Position numbers and translations under genes: made by a program
Shown here: in pieces, positions 15,589-31,965 of the stretch
How the letters are laid out: every line of letters begins with the position of its first letter
Position numbering within the stretch: position 1 is the stretch's first letter
The notes under the pieces: model-generated
Seen by the model: only the letters and a program-made list of their open reading frames with translations
Told to the model about the DNA's origin: nothing
Database searches by the model: none
Assembly: GCA_002705795.1 (NCBI GenBank)
Contig: PAHG01000013.1
Coordinates: 30,080-64,954, forward strand
Source of the DNA: Gammaproteobacteria bacterium
Lineage (GTDB): Bacteria > Pseudomonadota > Gammaproteobacteria > Pseudomonadales > Litorivicinaceae
Direction: 5' to 3'
DNA: 34,875 nt

Positions 15589-15656
15589 AAATGGTGCGGC
15601 GCACTATAACAGGGCGCCGCACCATTACTGGTCAATTTTCGCACCATTTTATTCCA
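15582..15656. promoter_or_regulatory. Cluster of three NtrC-like enhancer sites upstream of urtA
   Basis: TGAGTGAAAATGGTGCG (15582-15598), CGCACCATTACTGGTCA (15618-15634), CGCACCATTTTATTCCA (15640-15656; reverse complement TGGAATAAAATGGTGCG). Confidence 0.6.
15590..15626 (+). repeat. Perfect 13-bp inverted repeat downstream of allA
   Basis: AATGGTGCGGCGC (15590-15602), 11-nt loop, GCGCCGCACCATT (15614-15626); no clear U-tract follows. Confidence 0.75.
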
Positions 15657-15733
15657 AAAAGTTTTCTTATCTTCGAGTTGCAAAAATAAAGTATTTTCTT
15701 TGAAATCAGTCGCTAAGTGGCTTCCAAGTCGTG

Positions 15734-15750
15734 TTGGCACATTCTCTGCT
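15734..15750 (+). promoter_or_regulatory. Sigma-54-type promoter of urtA
   Basis: TTGGCAC-ATTCT-CTGCT: invariant -24 GG and -12 GC with correct spacing. About 50 nt upstream of ATG 15802. Confidence 0.65.
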
Positions 15751-21411: not shown

Positions 21412-22047
21412 CTAGTGGTCGTCGGTCCCGTAAATACGATCGCCCGCGTCTCCTAGTCCGGGCAGGATATAGCCCCTCTCGTCAAGCCTCTCATCGATTT
21501 TGGCGACGACAATCCTGACGTCCGGATACTCCGAAGTGATGCGTCGTATCCCCTCAGGACAGGCAAGAATATTGACCACAGTTATCTGATTTACGCCGGC
21601 GTCCATGAGCTTCCTGAGTGCCACGCTGAGGCTGTTACCGGTCGCCAGCATTGGGTCGACCACGATGCAGTGCCTGTCTCCTACATCGTCCGGTAGATTG
21701 GTGTAGTAGTCGTCGATCTCTAGAGTCACCGACTGGCGAGCCAGTCCGATGAATCCAATCGATGCATCGCTTACCAGATCTCGAAGTGTCTCCGCCATAA
21801 TGTTGCCGGCGCGCATAATTGAGACTATGCAGGGCCCCGGCTGCCCAATGAGTTGGCCAGTCGTTACCTGCAGCGGTGTCTCGACATCGACATCAACCAA
21901 CGGCAAATGGTTTGTCGCATCAGCGGCCAACAGCATCGTGATCTCTTGCACAAACTGTCTGAATTCTCGGCTGGGTGTGGTTTTATCTCGGAGCCGAGTG
22001 ATCCTGTCTAACACCAGCGGATTGTCTACTTCAACGACCGACGTCAT
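21412..22047 (-). CDS. upp: Uracil phosphoribosyltransferase-like protein
   Basis: PRPP-binding VDPMLATGNS and C-terminal GYILPGLGDAGDRIYGT match UPRT. Confidence 0.85.
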   Translation of the reverse strand: MTSVVEVDNPLVLDRITRLRDKTTPSREFRQFVQEITMLLAADATNHLPLVDVDVETPLQVTTGQLIGQPGPCIVSIMRAGNIMAETLRDLVSDASIGFIGLARQSVTLEIDDYYTNLPDDVGDRHCIVVDPMLATGNSLSVALRKLMDAGVNQITVVNILACPEGIRRITSEYPDVRIVVAKIDERLDERGYILPGLGDAGDRIYGTDDH

Positions 22048-22135
22048 AGGTTTGGACCTCTCTCATTAATTCACCACCGGACCCGTCGTTCAGCATATCA
22101 TTTTGGTGCGTCTATCGGAAAAAGAACCACTGCTG

Positions 22136-22152
22136 TGCACTAAGAGAGTGCA
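22136..22152. promoter_or_regulatory. NtrC-like enhancer site
   Basis: TGCACTAAGAGAGTGCA: TGCAC-N7-GTGCA, a TGCACT/AGTGCA inverted repeat about 100 bp upstream of the sigma-54-like element. Confidence 0.65.
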
Positions 22153-22191
22153 GTCGAAAAAGAGCTCCTCTCGTTCTTTTTGATGGGAAAA

Positions 22192-22238
22192 ATGTAACTA
22201 TATGTTTATAAGGGCAATTGTAACCTGATTGTAACTTG
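22192..22238. repeat. 11-bp-period direct repeats, PhoB/OmpR-type operator-like
   Basis: ATTGTAACCTG (22217-22227) and ATTGTAACTTG (22228-22238) in exact tandem; ATGTAAC near 22192 is a third copy of the core. Confidence 0.55.
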
Positions 22239-22252
22239 GCATAGGTTTTGTA
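22237..22252 (+). promoter_or_regulatory. Sigma-54-like promoter of the Pot-type operon
   Basis: TGGCAT-AGGTT-TTGTA with correct -24/-12 spacing; the -12 dinucleotide is GT rather than GC. Confidence 0.45.
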
Positions 22253-22276
22253 AAAGAACAATAAAAATGAGGGACT

Positions 22277-23242
22277 ATGGACGCACTCGAAGTTATAAGC
22301 CTGAGCATCCAGTACGACGACGTCATCGCTGTATCAGACGTTTCCTTCAAGCTTTCGACCGAGCAGTATTGTTGCTTGCTGGGTCCGTCGGGTTGCGGGA
22401 AGACCTCTACGCTGAGGGCTATCGCTGGTCATGAGGATGTCTCAGCCGGCGACGTGATCGTGGGTGGGCAGAACGTCACCGACCTGGCCCCGGCTAAGCG
22501 GCCTACCTCAATGATGTTCCAGGACTACGCGCTCTTCCCGCACCTCACGGTGCTAGATAACGTCGCGTTCGCTCTGAAAATAGCGGGTATGGATAAGACC
22601 GAGAGGCATACGGTTGCGCTTGGATATCTAAAGAAGGTCCAGCTCGAGGAATTCGCTAGCCGTTTCCCGTCCGAGCTATCGGGCGGACAGCAACAGCGGG
22701 TGGCGCTGGCTCGTGCGCTGGTTACGTCGCCGAAGGCGTTACTTCTCGACGAGCCCTTATCGGCGCTGGATCCCTTCTTACGTATTGACATGAGGGCAGA
22801 GCTGAAGGCCATGCAGAAGTCGCTCGGCATACCCTTTGTCCACGTCACCCACAGCCAAGAGGAGGCGATGGCCCTCTCAGACGTGGTGATCGTGATGGAC
22901 GGTGGGCAGATCCAGCAGGTGGGATCGCCCCGAGAAATATATGAAACCCCTGCAAACAGGTTCGTCGCAGAATTCATTGGGGGCCACAACGTGATCGAGT
23001 CTGATCATGGACTGGTCTCCGTGAAGTACAGTGAGCTACAGATAGAAACTAAGGGTCAGGCCAACTCAACGATCGAGAGAATTGAGTACCTCGGCCAGTA
23101 CCTAAAGGTATCGGTAGCCACTGATTTTGGGACATTGCACGCCTACACAGATGATAAGACTTTCTTAAGTTTGGGCTTAACGACAGGAGACGAGTGCAAT
23201 ACCCACTGGGTTCCGGGAACGGAAACTTTACTCAAAAACTGA
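22277..23242 (+). CDS. ABC transporter ATP-binding protein, PotA-like
   Basis: GPSGCGKTSTLRAIAGHE, MMFQDYALFPHLTVLDNV, LSGGQQQRVALARAL, LLLDEPLSALD, plus a C-terminal regulatory region. Confidence 0.93.
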   Translation: MDALEVISLSIQYDDVIAVSDVSFKLSTEQYCCLLGPSGCGKTSTLRAIAGHEDVSAGDVIVGGQNVTDLAPAKRPTSMMFQDYALFPHLTVLDNVAFALKIAGMDKTERHTVALGYLKKVQLEEFASRFPSELSGGQQQRVALARALVTSPKALLLDEPLSALDPFLRIDMRAELKAMQKSLGIPFVHVTHSQEEAMALSDVVIVMDGGQIQQVGSPREIYETPANRFVAEFIGGHNVIESDHGLVSVKYSELQIETKGQANSTIERIEYLGQYLKVSVATDFGTLHAYTDDKTFLSLGLTTGDECNTHWVPGTETLLKN

Positions 23243-23256
23243 GCTACGGAGGCATT

Positions 23257-24540
23257 ATGTCAAAGAAAACTCAAGAAAATACGGCTGGGTTGTCCAGACG
23301 ATCCTTTATCAAAGGTGCGGGCACACTAGCCGCCGCGTCGATGTTTGGTGGCGTCGCCCCATATGTCATGTCGAACGAGAAAAAGGTACTCCGCTACCTG
23401 GGTACCGCAGTGAACCAGGACAAGGCTATCGCTGCGAAGGCCAAGGAAGACCTGGGCATCACCATCGAATATATCCCGGTCACCACTGACGAGGTAACGA
23501 AGCGCATATTGACCCAACCGAACAGTTTTGATCTGGTGGACACGGAGTACTTCAGCCTGAAGAAGTTGGTGCCGTCAGGGAACCTGATTGGTATGAACGC
23601 TAGTAAGATTAAAGAGTTTGATAATATCGTCACCGCCTTCACAAAAGGCGAGGTCGCTGGTAAGAAAATTGGTGACCAGGGTACGGCCCCGAAGAAGGTA
23701 TTTTATAAAGAGGGCGAGAAGTCGACGAACTTCTCTAGCACGCCGACTGAGTGGGTAACGCTTATACCGACCGTATACAACGCGGATACATTGGGCATCA
23801 GGCCCGACCTGATCGGTCGTCCAATCAACAGCTGGGCGGAGCTGCTGAATCCTGAATTCAAGGGCAAGGCCTCGATCTTGAACATCCCATCGATCGGGAT
23901 CATGGACGCGGCCATGGTCGTCGAGGCGATGGGCGAGTACAAGTACCCCGACAAAGGAAACATGACCAAGAAAGAGATCGACCTGACCATGAAGGTCCTG
24001 ACGGAGGCAAAGAAGCAGGGCCAGTTCCGAGCATTTTGGTCTGACTTCAATGAGAGCGTTAACCTGATGGCGTCGGGCGAGGTAGTGATTCAGTCCATGT
24101 GGTCGCCAGCGATCACGGCGGTGAGGACCAAAGGCATCCCTTGCGTGTACCAGCCGCTGAAAGAGGGCTACAGGGCCTGGGCTGCCGGTTTTGGTCTGCC
24201 TACTACGATCAAAGGATACCAGCAAGATCTGGCTTACGAGTTCATCAACTGGTTCCTATCGGGTTGGGCGGGTGCGTACCTGAACCGCCAGGGCTACTAC
24301 TCGGCGGTGTTACCGACAGCCAAGGCGAACATGGAAGCCTATGAGTGGGATTACTGGATGCTCGGTAAGCCTGCCGCAAAAGATATTATGTCCCCGGGTG
24401 GACAGAAGCTTGCGTCGGCTGGCGAGGTTCGGGATGGTGGCTCGTACGAGACTCGGATGGGCGGTGTCGCGTGCTGGAACGCGGTGATGGACGAAAATCG
24501 TTACATGGTTAGAAAGTGGAATGAGTTTATAGCCTCCTAG
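23257..24540 (+). CDS. ABC transporter substrate-binding protein, PotD-like, Tat signal
   Basis: Twin-arginine motif SRRSFIKGAGTLAAASMFGG; PotD-like body. ATG 23257 preceded by GGAGG. Confidence 0.9.
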   Translation: MSKKTQENTAGLSRRSFIKGAGTLAAASMFGGVAPYVMSNEKKVLRYLGTAVNQDKAIAAKAKEDLGITIEYIPVTTDEVTKRILTQPNSFDLVDTEYFSLKKLVPSGNLIGMNASKIKEFDNIVTAFTKGEVAGKKIGDQGTAPKKVFYKEGEKSTNFSSTPTEWVTLIPTVYNADTLGIRPDLIGRPINSWAELLNPEFKGKASILNIPSIGIMDAAMVVEAMGEYKYPDKGNMTKKEIDLTMKVLTEAKKQGQFRAFWSDFNESVNLMASGEVVIQSMWSPAITAVRTKGIPCVYQPLKEGYRAWAAGFGLPTTIKGYQQDLAYEFINWFLSGWAGAYLNRQGYYSAVLPTAKANMEAYEWDYWMLGKPAAKDIMSPGGQKLASAGEVRDGGSYETRMGGVACWNAVMDENRYMVRKWNEFIAS

Positions 24541-24593: not shown

Positions 24594-25466
24594 ATGGCTA
24601 GACAAAACAGTAGCAGTATCCTCGCACTACCATTCGCTTCGGTGCTGGCGACGTTTTTCATCTTGCCGCTGATCTTGGTCGTGGTCGTGAGCTTTTGGGA
24701 CTACACCGAATATTCATTAATTCCTGACCTAATCCTCATGAACTATGAGGAGTTATTTTACGGGTGCTTTGACTGGAGCGAGGGGTTATGCACAACCTTT
24801 GCGACCTACCTATCGACCTTTAAGTACGTTTTTTTGACATGGTTCTTCACCCTAGGGATTGGTTTTGGGGTCGCTCTGTATTTGGTTTTCTGTGTCCGCA
24901 GTCTAAAGATGCAGATCGTTTTGTTTCTGATTTGTACGATCCCGTTCTGGACTAGTAACGTAATCAGGATGATTTCTTGGATCCCGTTGCTCGGGAGGAA
25001 CGGGATCGTCAATACAAGCCTCATGAGCATGGGGGTTATCGATCAACCGATAGAGTGGCTACTCTATTCTGGCTTCTCGGTCACGCTGGGCTTCGTGCAT
25101 CTCTATACCCTGTTCATGGTCGTCCCAATCTTCAACTCGATGGCGAAGATTGACAGGTCTCTGATAGAGGCGGCCAAGGACTCCGGTGCGTCGGCGTGGC
25201 AGATCATTACCAACATTATCATACCCTTGAGTCGCTCCGGGATCATGATCGGCTCGATCTTCGTTATCACGATCGTCGTCGGTGATTTCATAACGATAGG
25301 CGTGCTCGGGGGGCAACAGATCGCCTCTGTGGGGAAAATTATCTATGTCGAGATGAGTTACCTGCAGTTCCCGGCGGCCGCAGCCAACGCGGTAGTCTTG
25401 GTCTCGATTACCCTTCTGATGGTCGCGGCGATGATGAGAATCGTTAATGTGCGTAAGGAGCTCTAG
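24594..25466 (+). CDS. ABC transporter permease, PotB-like
   Basis: SLIEAAKDSGASAWQIITNIIIPLSRSGIMIGSIFVITIVVGDF (EAA loop); PFWTSNVIRMISWIPLLGRNGIVN. Confidence 0.92.
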   Translation: MARQNSSSILALPFASVLATFFILPLILVVVVSFWDYTEYSLIPDLILMNYEELFYGCFDWSEGLCTTFATYLSTFKYVFLTWFFTLGIGFGVALYLVFCVRSLKMQIVLFLICTIPFWTSNVIRMISWIPLLGRNGIVNTSLMSMGVIDQPIEWLLYSGFSVTLGFVHLYTLFMVVPIFNSMAKIDRSLIEAAKDSGASAWQIITNIIIPLSRSGIMIGSIFVITIVVGDFITIGVLGGQQIASVGKIIYVEMSYLQFPAAAANAVVLVSITLLMVAAMMRIVNVRKEL

Positions 25467-25468
25467 GG

Positions 25469-26341
25469 ATGTTTTCTAAGACCCAGACGGTGTGGCTGAC
25501 GATTTTCTTTGGATGTTTCGTTGTTTTTCTTTATGGGCCTGTTTTATCCATTATCCTGTTGGCATTTCAGGGACCCGAGGGCGGACTGACATTCCCGATG
25601 AGGGGCGTTTCTCTTCACTGGTTCGAAGAGCTTTGGCGCGGCCTGGGGGTGGTCGACATCTCCCGCGCGCTCCGACGTTCCCTGTTACTGGGCGTGCTGG
25701 TAATGATTTTCACCGTGGTGCTGAGCCTGTGCGCCGGCCTCGCGTTCCGAAAAAAATTCCGCGGCTCCGGTCTGCTGTTCTACCTCACGATTGCCAGCCT
25801 AATTATCCCATCGATCGCGATAAGCTTAGGCATCGCCCTGCAGTTCCGTTTGCTCGATGAGACCATCAAGTGGCTGGGCCAGACCCTGGACATCCAATGG
25901 ATAGTTAATGATTTCCAGACCTCGATGGGCCTCATCGCTTCGGGTCTGGGGACACACCTCACCTGGACACTGCCCTTCGGTCTGTTGATCATGTTCGCGG
26001 TATTTAACCGCTTCAATCCCAGCTACGAGGAGGCCGCGAGGGACCTCGGCGCGACCCCGTGGCAAACCTTCTGGGGTGTTGTTTTCCCGCTAATAGCTCC
26101 CGCCCTCGTGGGTGTCGCGTTGTTCGGGTTCACGCTCAGCTACGACGAGCTCGCGCGCTCGTCCCAGGCCCTGGGTGCCGTGAACACACTTCCCTTAGAG
26201 CTGAGAGGCCTCACGACAACGGTGACCAACCCATCGATATACGCGCTCGGGGCCGTGACCACCGGGGTCAGTTTCCTAGTCATCGGCCTCTCTCTGGCGC
26301 TGTTCTGGGTCCTGCGACGCAAGACGGGCACGGGCCAATGA
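25469..26341 (+). CDS. ABC transporter permease, PotC-like
   Basis: EEAARDLGATPWQTFWGVVFPLIAPALVGVALFGFTLSYDE. Confidence 0.92.
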   Translation: MFSKTQTVWLTIFFGCFVVFLYGPVLSIILLAFQGPEGGLTFPMRGVSLHWFEELWRGLGVVDISRALRRSLLLGVLVMIFTVVLSLCAGLAFRKKFRGSGLLFYLTIASLIIPSIAISLGIALQFRLLDETIKWLGQTLDIQWIVNDFQTSMGLIASGLGTHLTWTLPFGLLIMFAVFNRFNPSYEEAARDLGATPWQTFWGVVFPLIAPALVGVALFGFTLSYDELARSSQALGAVNTLPLELRGLTTTVTNPSIYALGAVTTGVSFLVIGLSLALFWVLRRKTGTGQ

Positions 26342-27006
26342 CGAACCTCCCGGTGGTCTGTTTCTTGAACCCCAACAGTACCGAGTCAATGACAAATACC
26401 TGTCGGGATACTCTGGGTCGGATCACTGTAGCTGCCGAGACACGATTTGAATTCATCACCAACCGTGGAGCGCCGGAAGCGATCCAAGGCGCGGAAGACG
26501 GTGATCTTGCAACCAAGGCCATGCTGTCCCTGGTGTCGGAGTTACCTCACAATTACTCGGCCTTCGTGGTTGGCTGCTTTGACGATACCGGCGTGTGGGA
26601 TCTCATTGAACAGGTGGGCCGGCCCGTGATCGGGATCGGTCAGGCGGCGTATCATTGGGCATCTCTCCGTTCGCAACGGTTCGTTGTCCTCACAACACTA
26701 GCGGTCTCTGTCCCGGTTATCAGAGAGTCAATTCGATGCCAAGGTTTCGAGCCTTACTGTCTCGACGTCGTCGCGAGCGGAATACCGGTACTTGAATTAG
26801 AGCGCAGCCCCGACCAGTCTTTGAAAATACTGAACGACTGCATTCGGAATATCGTCCAAACGTACGGTCAAGATGTGGCGGTCATATTAGGTTGTGCGGG
26901 TATGACGGACCTATATCCCGATCTGGCGGGCCAGTGGGACAGCCTGACCATCATTGACCCTGTCGCCGCCGGACTCAGACTGTCCGGTATTCTGTGCCAC
27001 GGGTAA
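26338..27006 (+). CDS. Asp/Glu/hydantoin racemase family protein; candidate allantoin racemase
   Basis: FLNPNSTESMT, GCFDDTGVWDL and ILGCAGMTDL, with paired catalytic-type cysteines. ATGA overlap with the permease stop; the listed ORF start at 26059 is an upstream extension. Confidence 0.8.
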   Translation: MTNLPVVCFLNPNSTESMTNTCRDTLGRITVAAETRFEFITNRGAPEAIQGAEDGDLATKAMLSLVSELPHNYSAFVVGCFDDTGVWDLIEQVGRPVIGIGQAAYHWASLRSQRFVVLTTLAVSVPVIRESIRCQGFEPYCLDVVASGIPVLELERSPDQSLKILNDCIRNIVQTYGQDVAVILGCAGMTDLYPDLAGQWDSLTIIDPVAAGLRLSGILCHG

Positions 27007-27013
27007 GCGACGT

Positions 27014-27871
27014 ATGGACCAACATCTGTCAAACCAATCCGACTATGTGTGGCCCGCAAGCCTGAGCTGTCAGTTCCATCAGACCAGTGCAGGTAATACC
27101 GCACTTGCAGAGATCTCGCATACCGGACCGTTGCGGGTGCAGAAATTGTTTCACGATCGAGACCTGGCACATTGCTACGTGTTGCACCCGCCCGGTGGGA
27201 TGGTTTCGGGTGACGACCTCGACTGCCGGTTCCGTCTTCACCCTAAGGCCAAGGTTCTGATAACGACACCTGCGTCAGGTAAGCTGTACCGGTCTCGACA
27301 AAACGGATCGATGCAGACCACCCGGACAGTGATCGAGATAGATGAAGAGGCAATGTGTGCCTATATGCCACAGGATACGATTGTCTTTGACGGCGCTTAT
27401 GGTGACCTGGAGACGCAGGTCTTCCTCGACTCGTCCGCTACCTACTTCGGCTGGGAGCATACGGTTTTTGGTCGGTCCGCTGGCTTTCTCCCGTTCACGG
27501 TTGGTCATTTGTCCCAGCGTCTTAGCGTCTACTGTGACCATCGGTTACTGTACCGAGATCATTTACGGATTGATCCTGAGACCTTGGCAAGCGCCAGCGG
27601 TCTGGACGCCATGACCAGCCTCGCGTCGGGGTTGTTGGTGCTGAGACAGGGATCCCAGGTGACAGATGCGGTGGTCGTCGGTTGCCGACAAATCTTAGAG
27701 GACTTTCCTGGAAAATCGGGCGTGACGGCTGTCCGTGACGGGCTGATTAGTATCCGTTTGCTATCTGATCGCTCGGAGGACACGAGGAACGTCCTTTATT
27801 CGTTGTGGTCTTTGGTTGGGGACCAAATCATGGCAAGAACAGTTGAAACCCCAAGAATTTGGAGGACATAA
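27014..27871 (+). CDS. ureD: Urease accessory protein UreD
   Basis: GPLRVQKLFHD, CYVLHPPGGMVSGDDL, LITTPASGKLYRS. Immediately upstream of ureA. Confidence 0.93.
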   Translation: MDQHLSNQSDYVWPASLSCQFHQTSAGNTALAEISHTGPLRVQKLFHDRDLAHCYVLHPPGGMVSGDDLDCRFRLHPKAKVLITTPASGKLYRSRQNGSMQTTRTVIEIDEEAMCAYMPQDTIVFDGAYGDLETQVFLDSSATYFGWEHTVFGRSAGFLPFTVGHLSQRLSVYCDHRLLYRDHLRIDPETLASASGLDAMTSLASGLLVLRQGSQVTDAVVVGCRQILEDFPGKSGVTAVRDGLISIRLLSDRSEDTRNVLYSLWSLVGDQIMARTVETPRIWRT

Positions 27872-28189
27872 ATGGAATTAACACCGAGAGAGAAAGATAA
27901 GCTACTACTCTACACGGCGGGCCTGGTCGCAGAACGCCGCTTGGCCCGGGGCCTGCGGCTTAACTATCCGGAGGCCGTTGCGTTGATCAGCTTGGAGATT
28001 ATGGAGGGCGCACGTGACGGGCGTTCCGTCGCAGAACTGATGCAGGTCGGACGCACAGTCCTGACCAGAGACCAAGTCATGGACGGTGTCGCCGAGATGG
28101 TGGACGAGGTACAGGTCGAGGCGACATTCCCCGACGGGACGAAGTTGGTCACGGTTCATGAACCCATACAGGAGGCATTGAAAAAATGA
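27872..28189 (+). CDS. ureA: Urease subunit gamma
   Basis: [40 protein letters not shown]. Confidence 0.97.
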
Positions 28190-28503
28190 TTCCAGGAGAA
28201 ACGAGAATTCAGTCGGGCGACGTGTACCTGAACGAGGACCGTGAAACAAAGACACTGGTGGTCGCAAACACGGGCGACCGACCCGTTCAGGTGGGCTCCC
28301 ACTATCATTTCTACGAGGTGAATCCTCGTCTCGAGTTTGATCGAGAGCAGGCGGTTGGCTTCCGTCTTAATATCGCAGCCGGCACCGCGGTGCGGTTCGA
28401 GCCGGGCCAGGAGAGGACCATCGAGCTGGTGGCGCTGGCGGGTGACCGCACCGTATTCGGGTTCAGGGGGCTGGTAATGGGTCGCTTGGAGGAGTCGGTA
28501 TGA
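28186..28503 (+). CDS. ureB: Urease subunit beta
   Basis: [46 protein letters not shown]. Confidence 0.97.
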
Positions 28504-30200
28504 AGATCTCTAGAAAAACGTACGCGGATCTCTACGGTCCTACTGTTGGCGACTCCGTTCGCCTCGGTGATACGAACCTCTGGGTTACCCCGGAGTCCGA
28601 CTCGGCCGTCCCCGGAGACGAGGTCACTTTTGGGGGAGGAAAAGTGATCCGAGATGGGATGGGCCAGTCCCAGCGCGGGAGCAAGGACTGCATGGATCTC
28701 GTGATTACGAACGCGCTGATTGTAGACTACTGGGGTATCGTCAAGGCCGATGTCGGTGTGAAGTCGGGAAGGATTGCGGCGATTGGTAAGGCGGGGAACC
28801 CCGACATCCAGCCGTCGGTCACTGTCGTTATCGGACCCGGAACCGAGATCGTCGCAGGCGAGGGTAAGATCCTCACGGCTGGCGGTATAGACTCCCATAT
28901 TCACTTCATCTGTCCGCAGCAGATTGATGAGGCGCTCGCGTCCGGCATCACGTCCATGCTAGGGGGAGGCACGGGTCCAGCGACCGGTACGAACGCGACC
29001 ACCTGCACACCAGGGCCCTTCAATATGGAAATGATGATGCGTGCGGTCGAGGGCCAGCCGATGAATTTCGGTTTTCTCGGAAAGGGTAACTCGAGCAACC
29101 GGCAGGCACTGCTCGAGCAGGTCCAGGCCGGGGCCTGTGGCTTGAAGCTCCACGAGGACTGGGGCACGACGCCTCAGGCGATTGACACGTGCCTGACGGT
29201 CGCTGACGAGACTGATACCCAGGTCGCGATTCATACCGACACATTAAACGAGTCTGGGTTCGTCGAGGAAACCCTGAAGGCGATTGCAGGACGGACCATC
29301 CATACCTACCACACCGAGGGCGCGGGCGGCGGACACGCCCCTGATATTATTAAGGCGGCCGGGTTGCCAAATATTTTGCCATCATCGACCAACCCCACAC
29401 GGCCCTATACGATCAACACCGTCGACGAGCATCTAGATATGTTGATGGTGTGTCATCACCTGTCACCGAACATCCCCGAGGACGTTGCGTTCGCGGACAG
29501 TCGGATCCGCAAGGAGACCATCGCCGCCGAGGACATCCTCCACGATAAGGGCGCGTTCAGTATGATCGCGTCGGACTCACAGGCCATGGGGCGTGTGGGT
29601 GAGGTTATTACTCGGACCTGGCAGACCGCTCACAAGATGAAGGACCAATTCGGATCGCTGGGCTCTGACCCAGACTGGAACGATAACTTCAGGGCCCGAC
29701 GCTACATCGCGAAATACACTATCAACCCAGCTATAGCTCACGGGATCGCCCACGAGGTCGGGTCCGTTGAGGTCGGGAAAATGGCTGACCTGGTCCTCTG
29801 GAAGCCTGCATTTTTTGGGACCAAGCCGGCACTGATTCTGAAGAGCGGGTTTATTGTTGCGGCCCCGATGGGTGACCCGAATGCATCTATTCCGACCCCA
29901 CAGCCCGTGCACTATCGAACGATGTTCGGGGCGATGGGGTCGTGCCCTGACCGCTTGTCGGCGACCTTTGTGTCTGAGTTGTCTTTGCGGCACGACAATG
30001 GGTGGATGTCTAGTACTGACCGGCAGTTACTGCCCGTCAAGAATATTCGGTCGGTTAAAAAATCCGATATGGTACTCAATGATTTTCAGCCAACCATCGA
30101 GGTTGACCCAGAAACCTACGAGGTCCGGGCCGATGGAGAACTCTTAGTTTGCGAACCCGCACGGTCGTTACCTTTGGCCCAACGATATTATTTATTTTAA
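28500..30200 (+). CDS. ureC: Urease subunit alpha
   Basis: [32 protein letters not shown], carbamylated-lysine motif GLKLHEDWG, active-site flap MVCHHL. Confidence 0.98.
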
Positions 30201-30203
30201 GGG

Positions 30204-30662
30204 ATGCACGATTTGTTGGAGCTGACCGAGAAACTCGATGTCGCCGCACGCTACGATGCGATCATTACGCTTGATTATGACTCACGCAAGCGGGGGCGTC
30301 TGAAGACCCTGACTGAGGCCGATGAGGAGGCCGGTCTTTTTCTGGACCGGGGCCAGGCTCTGGTGGACGGCGACTATTTGAGGGCGACAGACGGTCGGGT
30401 GGTCCTTGTGAAAGCCGCGGCCGAGCGGCTGACCGAGGCCTCGACATCCGACCCGGTGCTGTTCGCAAAAATTTGCTATCACCTAGGGAACCGACACACA
30501 CCGGTCGAGATTCAACCAGGCTCGGTTCGGTTCCAGCCAGACCACGTTTTGTCTGACCTTTGCCACCAGTGGGGTCTGCGGGTGACGGATCTTGAGGATT
30601 CATTCGACCCAGAGTCGGGAGCGTATGGTCAAAACGCGGGGGGCGGTCATCATCATGACTAA
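30204..30662 (+). CDS. ureE: Urease accessory protein UreE
   Basis: KRGRLKTL, YHLGNRHTPVEI, and a short His-containing tail GGGHHHD. Confidence 0.93.
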   Translation: MHDLLELTEKLDVAARYDAIITLDYDSRKRGRLKTLTEADEEAGLFLDRGQALVDGDYLRATDGRVVLVKAAAERLTEASTSDPVLFAKICYHLGNRHTPVEIQPGSVRFQPDHVLSDLCHQWGLRVTDLEDSFDPESGAYGQNAGGGHHHD

Positions 30663-31308
30663 CTCGGGGCATTTAATACACGCTCTGCATCTGTTCTCTC
30701 CGAGCCTTCCGATAGGCGCGTTTGCGTTCAGTCAGGGGCTCGAGGCCGCTATTGAGTCAAGGCATGTTTACGACCCGGAATCCCTCGCCCGGTGGTGCGA
30801 CAGCGTGATGCGGTTTTCGCTCACGACGCTCGATTGTCACTACGCGATCCATGCATACCGAGCGACTTCAGAGTCAATGTTTCGGGACGTTAACGCCGAG
30901 CTTCTCGCGTCTCGTGAGACACGAGAGTTGCTTCAGGAGGACCTACGCCTTGGAGCGGCCTTTAAGAAGTGGGCTACCGATCAGGGAATCGATGTACCCG
31001 ACGCACGTGAATATTCAGTTATCTGTCTGTATGGGTGGGTCGCGGCGAGGTATGAGGTCCCCGAGGAATGGCTGGTTACCGGTATCCTCTGGTCCTGGCT
31101 TGACAACCAAATGCTTGTCGCCGCCAAAGCGATTCCGTTGGGTCAGAACGCGTTACAAGCCGTTTTGGCTGACTTAAAGCCAGTGATCTCCGAGTGCGTC
31201 GAGCATTCGATTCAGTCTCTTGGGTCGGAGCCCTCGAGCACGGTCCCTCTTCTTTCAATCTTGAGCGCTCAGCACGAGACTCAATATTCCAGGCTTTTCC
31301 GCTCTTAG
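30655..31308 (+). CDS. ureF: Urease accessory protein UreF
   Basis: LFSPSLPIGAFAFSQGLEAAIE. Start at ATG 30655 overlaps the ureE 3' end. Confidence 0.94.
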   Translation: MTNSGHLIHALHLFSPSLPIGAFAFSQGLEAAIESRHVYDPESLARWCDSVMRFSLTTLDCHYAIHAYRATSESMFRDVNAELLASRETRELLQEDLRLGAAFKKWATDQGIDVPDAREYSVICLYGWVAARYEVPEEWLVTGILWSWLDNQMLVAAKAIPLGQNALQAVLADLKPVISECVEHSIQSLGSEPSSTVPLLSILSAQHETQYSRLFRS

Positions 31309-31317
31309 GAGGCATGC

Positions 31318-31965
31318 ATGCAGGCGTTACGCGTTGGTATCGGTGGCCCAGTCGGTTCAGGTAAGACCGCACTCACCCTCAATTTATGTCTCACGATGCG
31401 TGATCACTACGACATGGCCGTGGTCACGAACGATATCTACACACACGAGGATGCTCAATTTTTGACTCGCCACGACGCGTTGGATGAAACGAGGATATTG
31501 GGTGTAGAGACCGGTGGATGTCCACACACGGCGATTCGTGAGGATGCGTCTATGAACCTCGCCGCGATTGATGAACTCCAGGAACGACACCAGGGGCTCG
31601 AGTTGGTCCTGGTTGAGTCGGGTGGCGATAACCTCAGCGCCACGTTCTCGCCGGAACTGTCGGACCTTACCATCTATGTCATCGACGTTGGCGCGGGGGA
31701 CAAGATCCCGAGAAAGGGCGGGCCCGGCATAACGAAGAGCGATTTGTTGGTTATCAATAAGATCGATGTGGCCCCGTTGGTGGGTGCCTCGCTTGAGGTA
31801 ATGGAGCGGGACGCGACAAGAATGCGTGGGGACAGACCTTTCGTTTTCAGTAACATGAAAACCGGCGAGGGAGTCCGCGAGATAATCGAGTTCGTCGTGG
31901 ACCGGGGCATGTTGAGAACAAGAGATCTCGGAGACTTGGATCGGGCTCTAGCGAGGAGTGTCTGA
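31318..31965 (+). CDS. ureG: Urease accessory GTPase UreG
   Basis: P-loop [58 protein letters not shown]. Confidence 0.97.

Follow-up and report, generated by a model that had tools for sequence, protein, structure and literature searches.

Gene content and setting of the locus

The window, by which we mean the whole stretch of 34,875 nucleotides that was analysed, encodes xanthine dehydrogenase-type proteins, XdhC, HIU hydrolase, urate oxidase, OHCU decarboxylase, allantoicase, ureidoglycolate lyase, UrtABCDE, Upp, a Pot-type transporter, a racemase and urease. It also encodes a member of the polysaccharide-deacetylase family, probably a PuuE-type allantoinase. Judged by this predicted gene content, the window is a purine-to-ammonia island. 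The PotA-type ATPase gene opens an operon that continues through the substrate-binding protein (SBP), permease and racemase genes into the urease genes (Table 1). All control elements described here for this operon fall within the 229-bp intergenic region (22048-22276) between the operon and upp.

The closest relatives of the SBP (93-95% identity) were found in Gammaproteobacterium HIMB30 and a further three related assemblies from marine metagenomes, and the source organism is a marine member of the Gammaproteobacteria from the HIMB30/OM252 genus. In the OM252 clade, which includes HIMB30, PII is present and urt and urease genes occur in part of the genomes (PMC8269220). Within the genus, full upp was detected only in genomes with Pot genes; one further genome (G016) gave a 128-residue upp match adjoining the allantoicase and ureidoglycolate lyase genes. 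In four SAR116 loci (L022, L028, L053 and L059), the Pot-type transporter occurs with xanthine dehydrogenase, allantoicase, ureidoglycolate lyase, racemase and upp, and in most of them with urate oxidase as well. This gene company points to a substrate that may be purine-derived or pyrimidine-derived. For the window, the substrate of Pot-type uptake is probably a purine-derived ureide or related compound. The first-pass annotation had placed ureide import in a nitrogen-starvation circuit; the predicted shared nitrogen control stands, while the word ureide comes from gene company only. A literature search combining NtrC, allantoin, urease and ABC transporter in a marine setting returned nothing.

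Table 1. Positions of genes and predicted control elements in the window.
Feature	Position	Strand	Remarks
NtrC-like half-sites before urtA (CGCACTATAACAGGGCG, CGCACCATTTTATTCCA)	15589-15660	+	40 bp apart
urtA sigma-54-type promoter TTGGCACATTCTCTGCT	15734-15750	+	-12 C present
upp, uracil phosphoribosyltransferase	21412-22047	-	divergent, shares intergenic region
Upstream NtrC half-site (site 1, ATTTTGGTGCG)	22100-22110	+	centre about -161 from predicted start
Half-site core TTTTGGTGCG	22101-22110	+	
NtrC palindrome TGCAC-TAAGAGA-GTGCA (site 2, TGCACTAAGAGAGTGCA)	22136-22152	+	centre about -119 from predicted start
Sigma-54-type promoter element TTGGCATAGGTTTTGTA	22236-22252	+	-24 TTGGCAT, -12 TTGT
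Predicted leader, 14 nt	22263-22276	+	start position derived from the -12 element
PotA-type ABC transporter ATPase	22277-23242	+	first gene of operon
Pot-type substrate-binding protein (SBP)	23194-24540	+	real start slightly later
Two Pot-type permeases	24594-25466, 25469-26341	+	
Asp/Glu/hydantoin-racemase family protein	26059-27006	+	PF01177; open frame, domain from residue 102
Urease operon ureD-ureA-ureB-ureC-ureE-ureF-ureG	26954-31965	+	tightly spaced, downstream

Predicted control elements of the Pot-urease operon

The palindrome and the half-site proposed by the first-pass annotation were found exactly where it had put them, as were the ATG at 22277 and the TGGCAT-N5-TTGTA element (22237-22252), 85-100 bp downstream of the palindrome. 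The centres of sites 1 and 2 lie approximately 42 bp apart (four helical turns), and the left half of site 1 is degenerate. The region thus contains two sites that lie on one helical face 100-200 bp before the predicted start, as expected of an NtrC enhancer, site 1 being a half-site only. In the promoter element, the -24 (TTGGCAT, 22236-22242) contains the invariant GG, and the GG-to-G spacing is 10 nt in the window and in all orthologues. The consensus C is absent from the -12 TTGT, leaving GT at -13/-12. Transcription is predicted to start at 22263, and a Shine-Dalgarno-like GAGGG (22269-22273) lies inside the predicted leader. A candidate IHF site between enhancer and promoter was rejected, the best matches reaching 7-8 of 9 fixed positions and being unaligned between the two clades.

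Even when one mismatch is tolerated, TGCAC-N7-GTGCA matches the window once; that match is exact, but about 0.95 matches per window are expected at one mismatch, so the palindrome alone is not significant, and the full-length score of site 1 is no better than that of shuffles. When the -12 base is left free, the window contains two matches to a -24/-12-like pattern, one preceding urtA and the other the Pot operon, against a mean of 0.11 in shuffled sequence, in which two occurrences were never reached. These same two sites ranked best in a matrix scan of the window that left the -12 C and the following base unscored, using weight matrices built from general knowledge of the consensus and not trained. 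Whole-genome scanning for co-regulated sites, a check proposed in the first-pass annotation, yielded four perfect copies of the palindrome and no control matches. The four precede the core nitrogen genes glnA and amtB, an azlC-like region and the Pot-urease operon, the first three names being our reading of translated frames. Across 22 genomes of the genus, the pattern occurred 66 times, compared with 14 for the reversed control.

It is the conservation in six orthologues that lifts these elements above chance. Among the six genus members that carry Pot genes with a divergent upp upstream, 23 of the 24 core bases are invariant, compared with 16% of columns elsewhere in the intergenic DNA, where pairwise identity outside the motifs is 35-61% (71-81% among three close relatives). 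Treating columns as independent, which makes the values rough, binomial P is 5e-7 for site 1 (9/10 core bases invariant), 9e-5 for the left half of site 2 (TGCAC, 5/5, in 6/6 orthologues), 1.5e-5 for TTGGCA of the -24 (6/6) and 4e-3 for TTG of the -12 (3/3). The distance between sites 1 and 2 is 41-43 bp in all six orthologues. Only the window and HIMB30 retain site 2 as a complete palindrome; in the other four, its right half is degenerate. The first-pass annotation had named a lack of conservation of the NtrC-like site in orthologous intergenic regions as evidence against its reading; the site is conserved in six species. On this comparative evidence, the region at 22048-22276 holds a strong phylogenetic footprint.

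The same bases were weighed as a sigma-70 promoter, with TTGGCA at 22236 as a -35 box, the operon constitutive or otherwise regulated and the NtrC-like sites incidental or repressive. TTGGCA agrees with TTGACA at five of six bases, and a -10-like AATAAA (4/6) follows at 18 bp in the window, G009 and HIMB30. However, no -10 is conserved (never above 3/6 in the three second-clade members), and promoter prediction gives no plus-strand sigma-70-like promoter here. The TTG is invariant at exactly -15 to -13, where a -35 box has no need of it, and the NtrC half-sites upstream are conserved. We regard a sigma-70 promoter as very improbable.

Putative nitrogen promoters within and beyond the genus

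The urtA genes of the window and of three other genus members (G003, G002 and G013) are preceded by a sigma-54-like element whose -12 contains GC, and NtrC-like sites lie further upstream; the G002 promoter reads TTGGCATATTCCCTGCT. In the window, the translation start of urtA is probably ATG 15802, approximately 100 bp inside the longest open frame, which starts at 15700. The ureD genes of the Pot-free genomes G007, G010 and G008 likewise have a sigma-54-like element of their own, again with GC at -12, downstream of NtrC-like sites, and before G010 ureD the CATTTTGGTGCG / TGCAC-N7-GTGCA pair is repeated 43 bp apart. Some NtrC-like sites at these urtA and ureD promoters are individually weak, including the half-sites of the window (p approximately 0.13), which are conserved in kind in G003. 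NtrC-like and sigma-54-like elements are both present at glnA and amtB. Where NtrC sites are paired in nitrogen promoters of the genus, they lie approximately 31-32 or 40-43 bp apart. The genus urt promoters resemble that of the Pot operon in the kind of regulator site and in -24/-12 spacing; unlike it, they all carry the -12 C (CTGCT). These data support the earlier proposal that the Pot-urease operon shares a nitrogen-starvation circuit with urtA.

Two of the genomic palindromes have other surroundings. At amtB (L097:1398-1517, G000:C11), the order is unusual, in that the perfect palindrome lies downstream of the sigma-54-like element and only 17 bp from the ATG. Another perfect palindrome (L098:1501-1517, G000:C11) lies approximately 300 bp before a gene for an AzlC-like branched-chain amino acid exporter, as identified by eye; its 17-mer, TGCACCATTTCCGTGCA, also occurs in G007 and G020.

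Another reading of the shared 229-bp region is that its conserved elements act chiefly on the divergent upp, or on both genes, instead of on the Pot-urease operon; since full upp accompanies only Pot genes, the genus offers no upp-free controls. The -24/-12 element faces the Pot operon, 24-27 bp from its ATG in 6/6 orthologues, and urease and urt operons without an adjacent upp show the same kind of control. Control directed at upp is very improbable.

The genus search returned no urtA match in four of the six Pot-urease genomes, and at the corresponding place G006 retains a urtE fragment, so the Pot promoter has persisted despite the loss of urt. The urtE fragment at L020:7855-8097 (59% identity over approximately 80 residues) sits between ureidoglycolate lyase and upp in a relative that lacks the full urt set there, and suggests that urtABCDE may have been deleted from the island.

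Beyond the genus, we compared 55 orthologous operons with a potA-first layout, mostly from Comamonadaceae, related records whose counts are not independent. A -24/-12 element was detected upstream in 54 of them; at the cut-off used, 9.6% of shuffles gave one. In 36 of the 55, an NtrC-like site precedes this element (1.9% of shuffles), most commonly 54-55 bp upstream of the -24. These operons, from Acidovorax, Variovorax and other relatives (L023-L096), resemble the Pot operon of the window in having a -24/-12 upstream; they differ in that the NtrC-like site is much closer to the promoter and that urease is not adjacent in the loci mapped. In SAR116 orthologues, where potA is divergent from the SBP gene, no comparable -24/-12 or NtrC-like element was found in the divergent region.

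The enteric glnA promoter (glnAp2) has NtrC enhancer sites at -108 and -140. The Pot region is similar in that a -24/-12 promoter is preceded, at a distance of 100-165 bp, by two NtrC sites in helical phase, but the spacing is 42 instead of 32 bp, one site is a half-site and the -12 C is missing. At the glnA of the window genome itself, three NtrC sites are spaced by 31-32 bp and the -12 contains GC. Urease operons under sigma-54 control are known from alpha- and betaproteobacteria (PMC12316311). The urease genes of the window would likewise be under a sigma-54-type promoter, but they are distal, behind the Pot-type transporter and racemase genes, and the host is a gammaproteobacterium.

The missing -12 C and predicted nitrogen control

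At -12, the six genus orthologues have T, A, A, G, G and G, and in none of them a C (-13/-12 dinucleotides GT in the window and GA, GA, GG, GG and GG in the other five). The absence of C is common to all six, while the replacing base differs between lineages. The C is present in every other nitrogen promoter checked in the genus, and GC occupies -13/-12 in 54 of 54 out-of-genus Pot operon promoters, in which the -12 base was unscored. The GC at -13/-12 that marks sigma-54 promoters is thus lacking here, and we class the Pot operon promoter as putatively of the sigma-54 type but deviant at -12, rather than as one that fits the consensus. The first-pass annotation had rightly flagged the -12 GT variant, which turns out to be a conserved deviation.

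Of bacterial sigma-54 promoters, 96% conserve the -12 C, which helps to hold basal transcription in check; at sites giving activator-independent transcription with Region I-less sigma-54, it is not strictly conserved (PMC4551910). Since some experimentally validated E. coli sigma-54 promoters depart from the consensus at -12 (PMC12316311), the deviation does not exclude function. An altered sigma factor does not explain the missing C, given that the recognition segments of RpoN (the -12 helix-turn-helix segment and the ARRTVAKYRE box) match solved sigma-54 almost letter for letter. That the promoter has decayed, with the region inactive and the operon read from elsewhere, is most improbable: C is absent in 6/6 against its presence in 54/54 of the wider set, but TTGGCA and TTG are invariant amid DNA that is 35-61% identical in most pairs, and a dead promoter would have lost them too.

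Loss of the -12 C should lower the strength of a functional promoter of this type, or else loosen its shut-off, relative to a consensus sigma-54 promoter. Reduced strength alone is no less likely than leakiness. The stronger proposal, that selection keeps a C-less sigma-54 promoter before the Pot-urease operon alone among the nitrogen promoters of the genus, as an evolved leaky promoter with relaxed fork-junction locking, seems to us unlikely. Six related sequences are too few to separate drift from selection against C. Given that there is little evidence of pervasive bypass in vivo (PMC4551910), a leaky promoter is a prediction and not a finding. If true, it would mean basal, activator-light scavenging of ureide or urea to which NtrC adds, and an unusual instance of a sigma-54 promoter that has evolved to be leaky.

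Canonical RpoN, NtrB and NtrC are all encoded in the genome. The NtrBC equivalog profiles TIGR01818 (698.7 bits) and NF008293 (264.4 bits) both score above curated cut-offs, and ntrB and ntrC adjoin glnA, downstream of it. Five further strong sigma-54 activator domains were detected, several of which look like candidate flagellar-type regulators. A NifA-like GAF-AAA-HTH activator (by eye; L005, G000:C30:2981-6484) adjoins a nitrate/taurine-type ABC permease gene.

With these regulators encoded and the elements conserved in position and sequence in six species, the NtrC/sigma-54 reading of the first pass is supported. Very probably, 22100-22252 is an NtrC-dependent enhancer and sigma-54-type promoter that would activate the Pot-type transporter, racemase and urease operon under nitrogen limitation. 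At low glutamine, NtrB would phosphorylate NtrC, and NtrC~P would bind site 2 strongly together with the helically phased half-site 1. The NtrC oligomer would then loop to the RNA polymerase-sigma-54 waiting at 22236-22252, and ATP hydrolysis by NtrC would open the polymerase-promoter complex, with transcription from approximately 22263. The urtA gene would be driven by its own sigma-54 promoter, so that urea uptake, Pot-type uptake and urease would answer to one common nitrogen signal. The missing -12 base is the only oddity in this otherwise ordinary NtrC/sigma-54 nitrogen control. The Pot-urease operon would thus be a further operon under a known type of regulation, the regulatory effect being deduced from sequence.

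If correct, this arrangement would give the general nitrogen-starvation switch control over the transporter, racemase and urease of OM252/HIMB30, a widespread marine clade, and the timing of the uptake of urea, and probably of purine-derived nitrogen, by these cells could be predicted from it. With one nitrogen signal for urt, Pot and urease, no local regulator would be needed, and the general switch would account for the missing local regulator gene. The conserved missing -12 base offers a natural experiment on how sigma-54 promoters stay silent.
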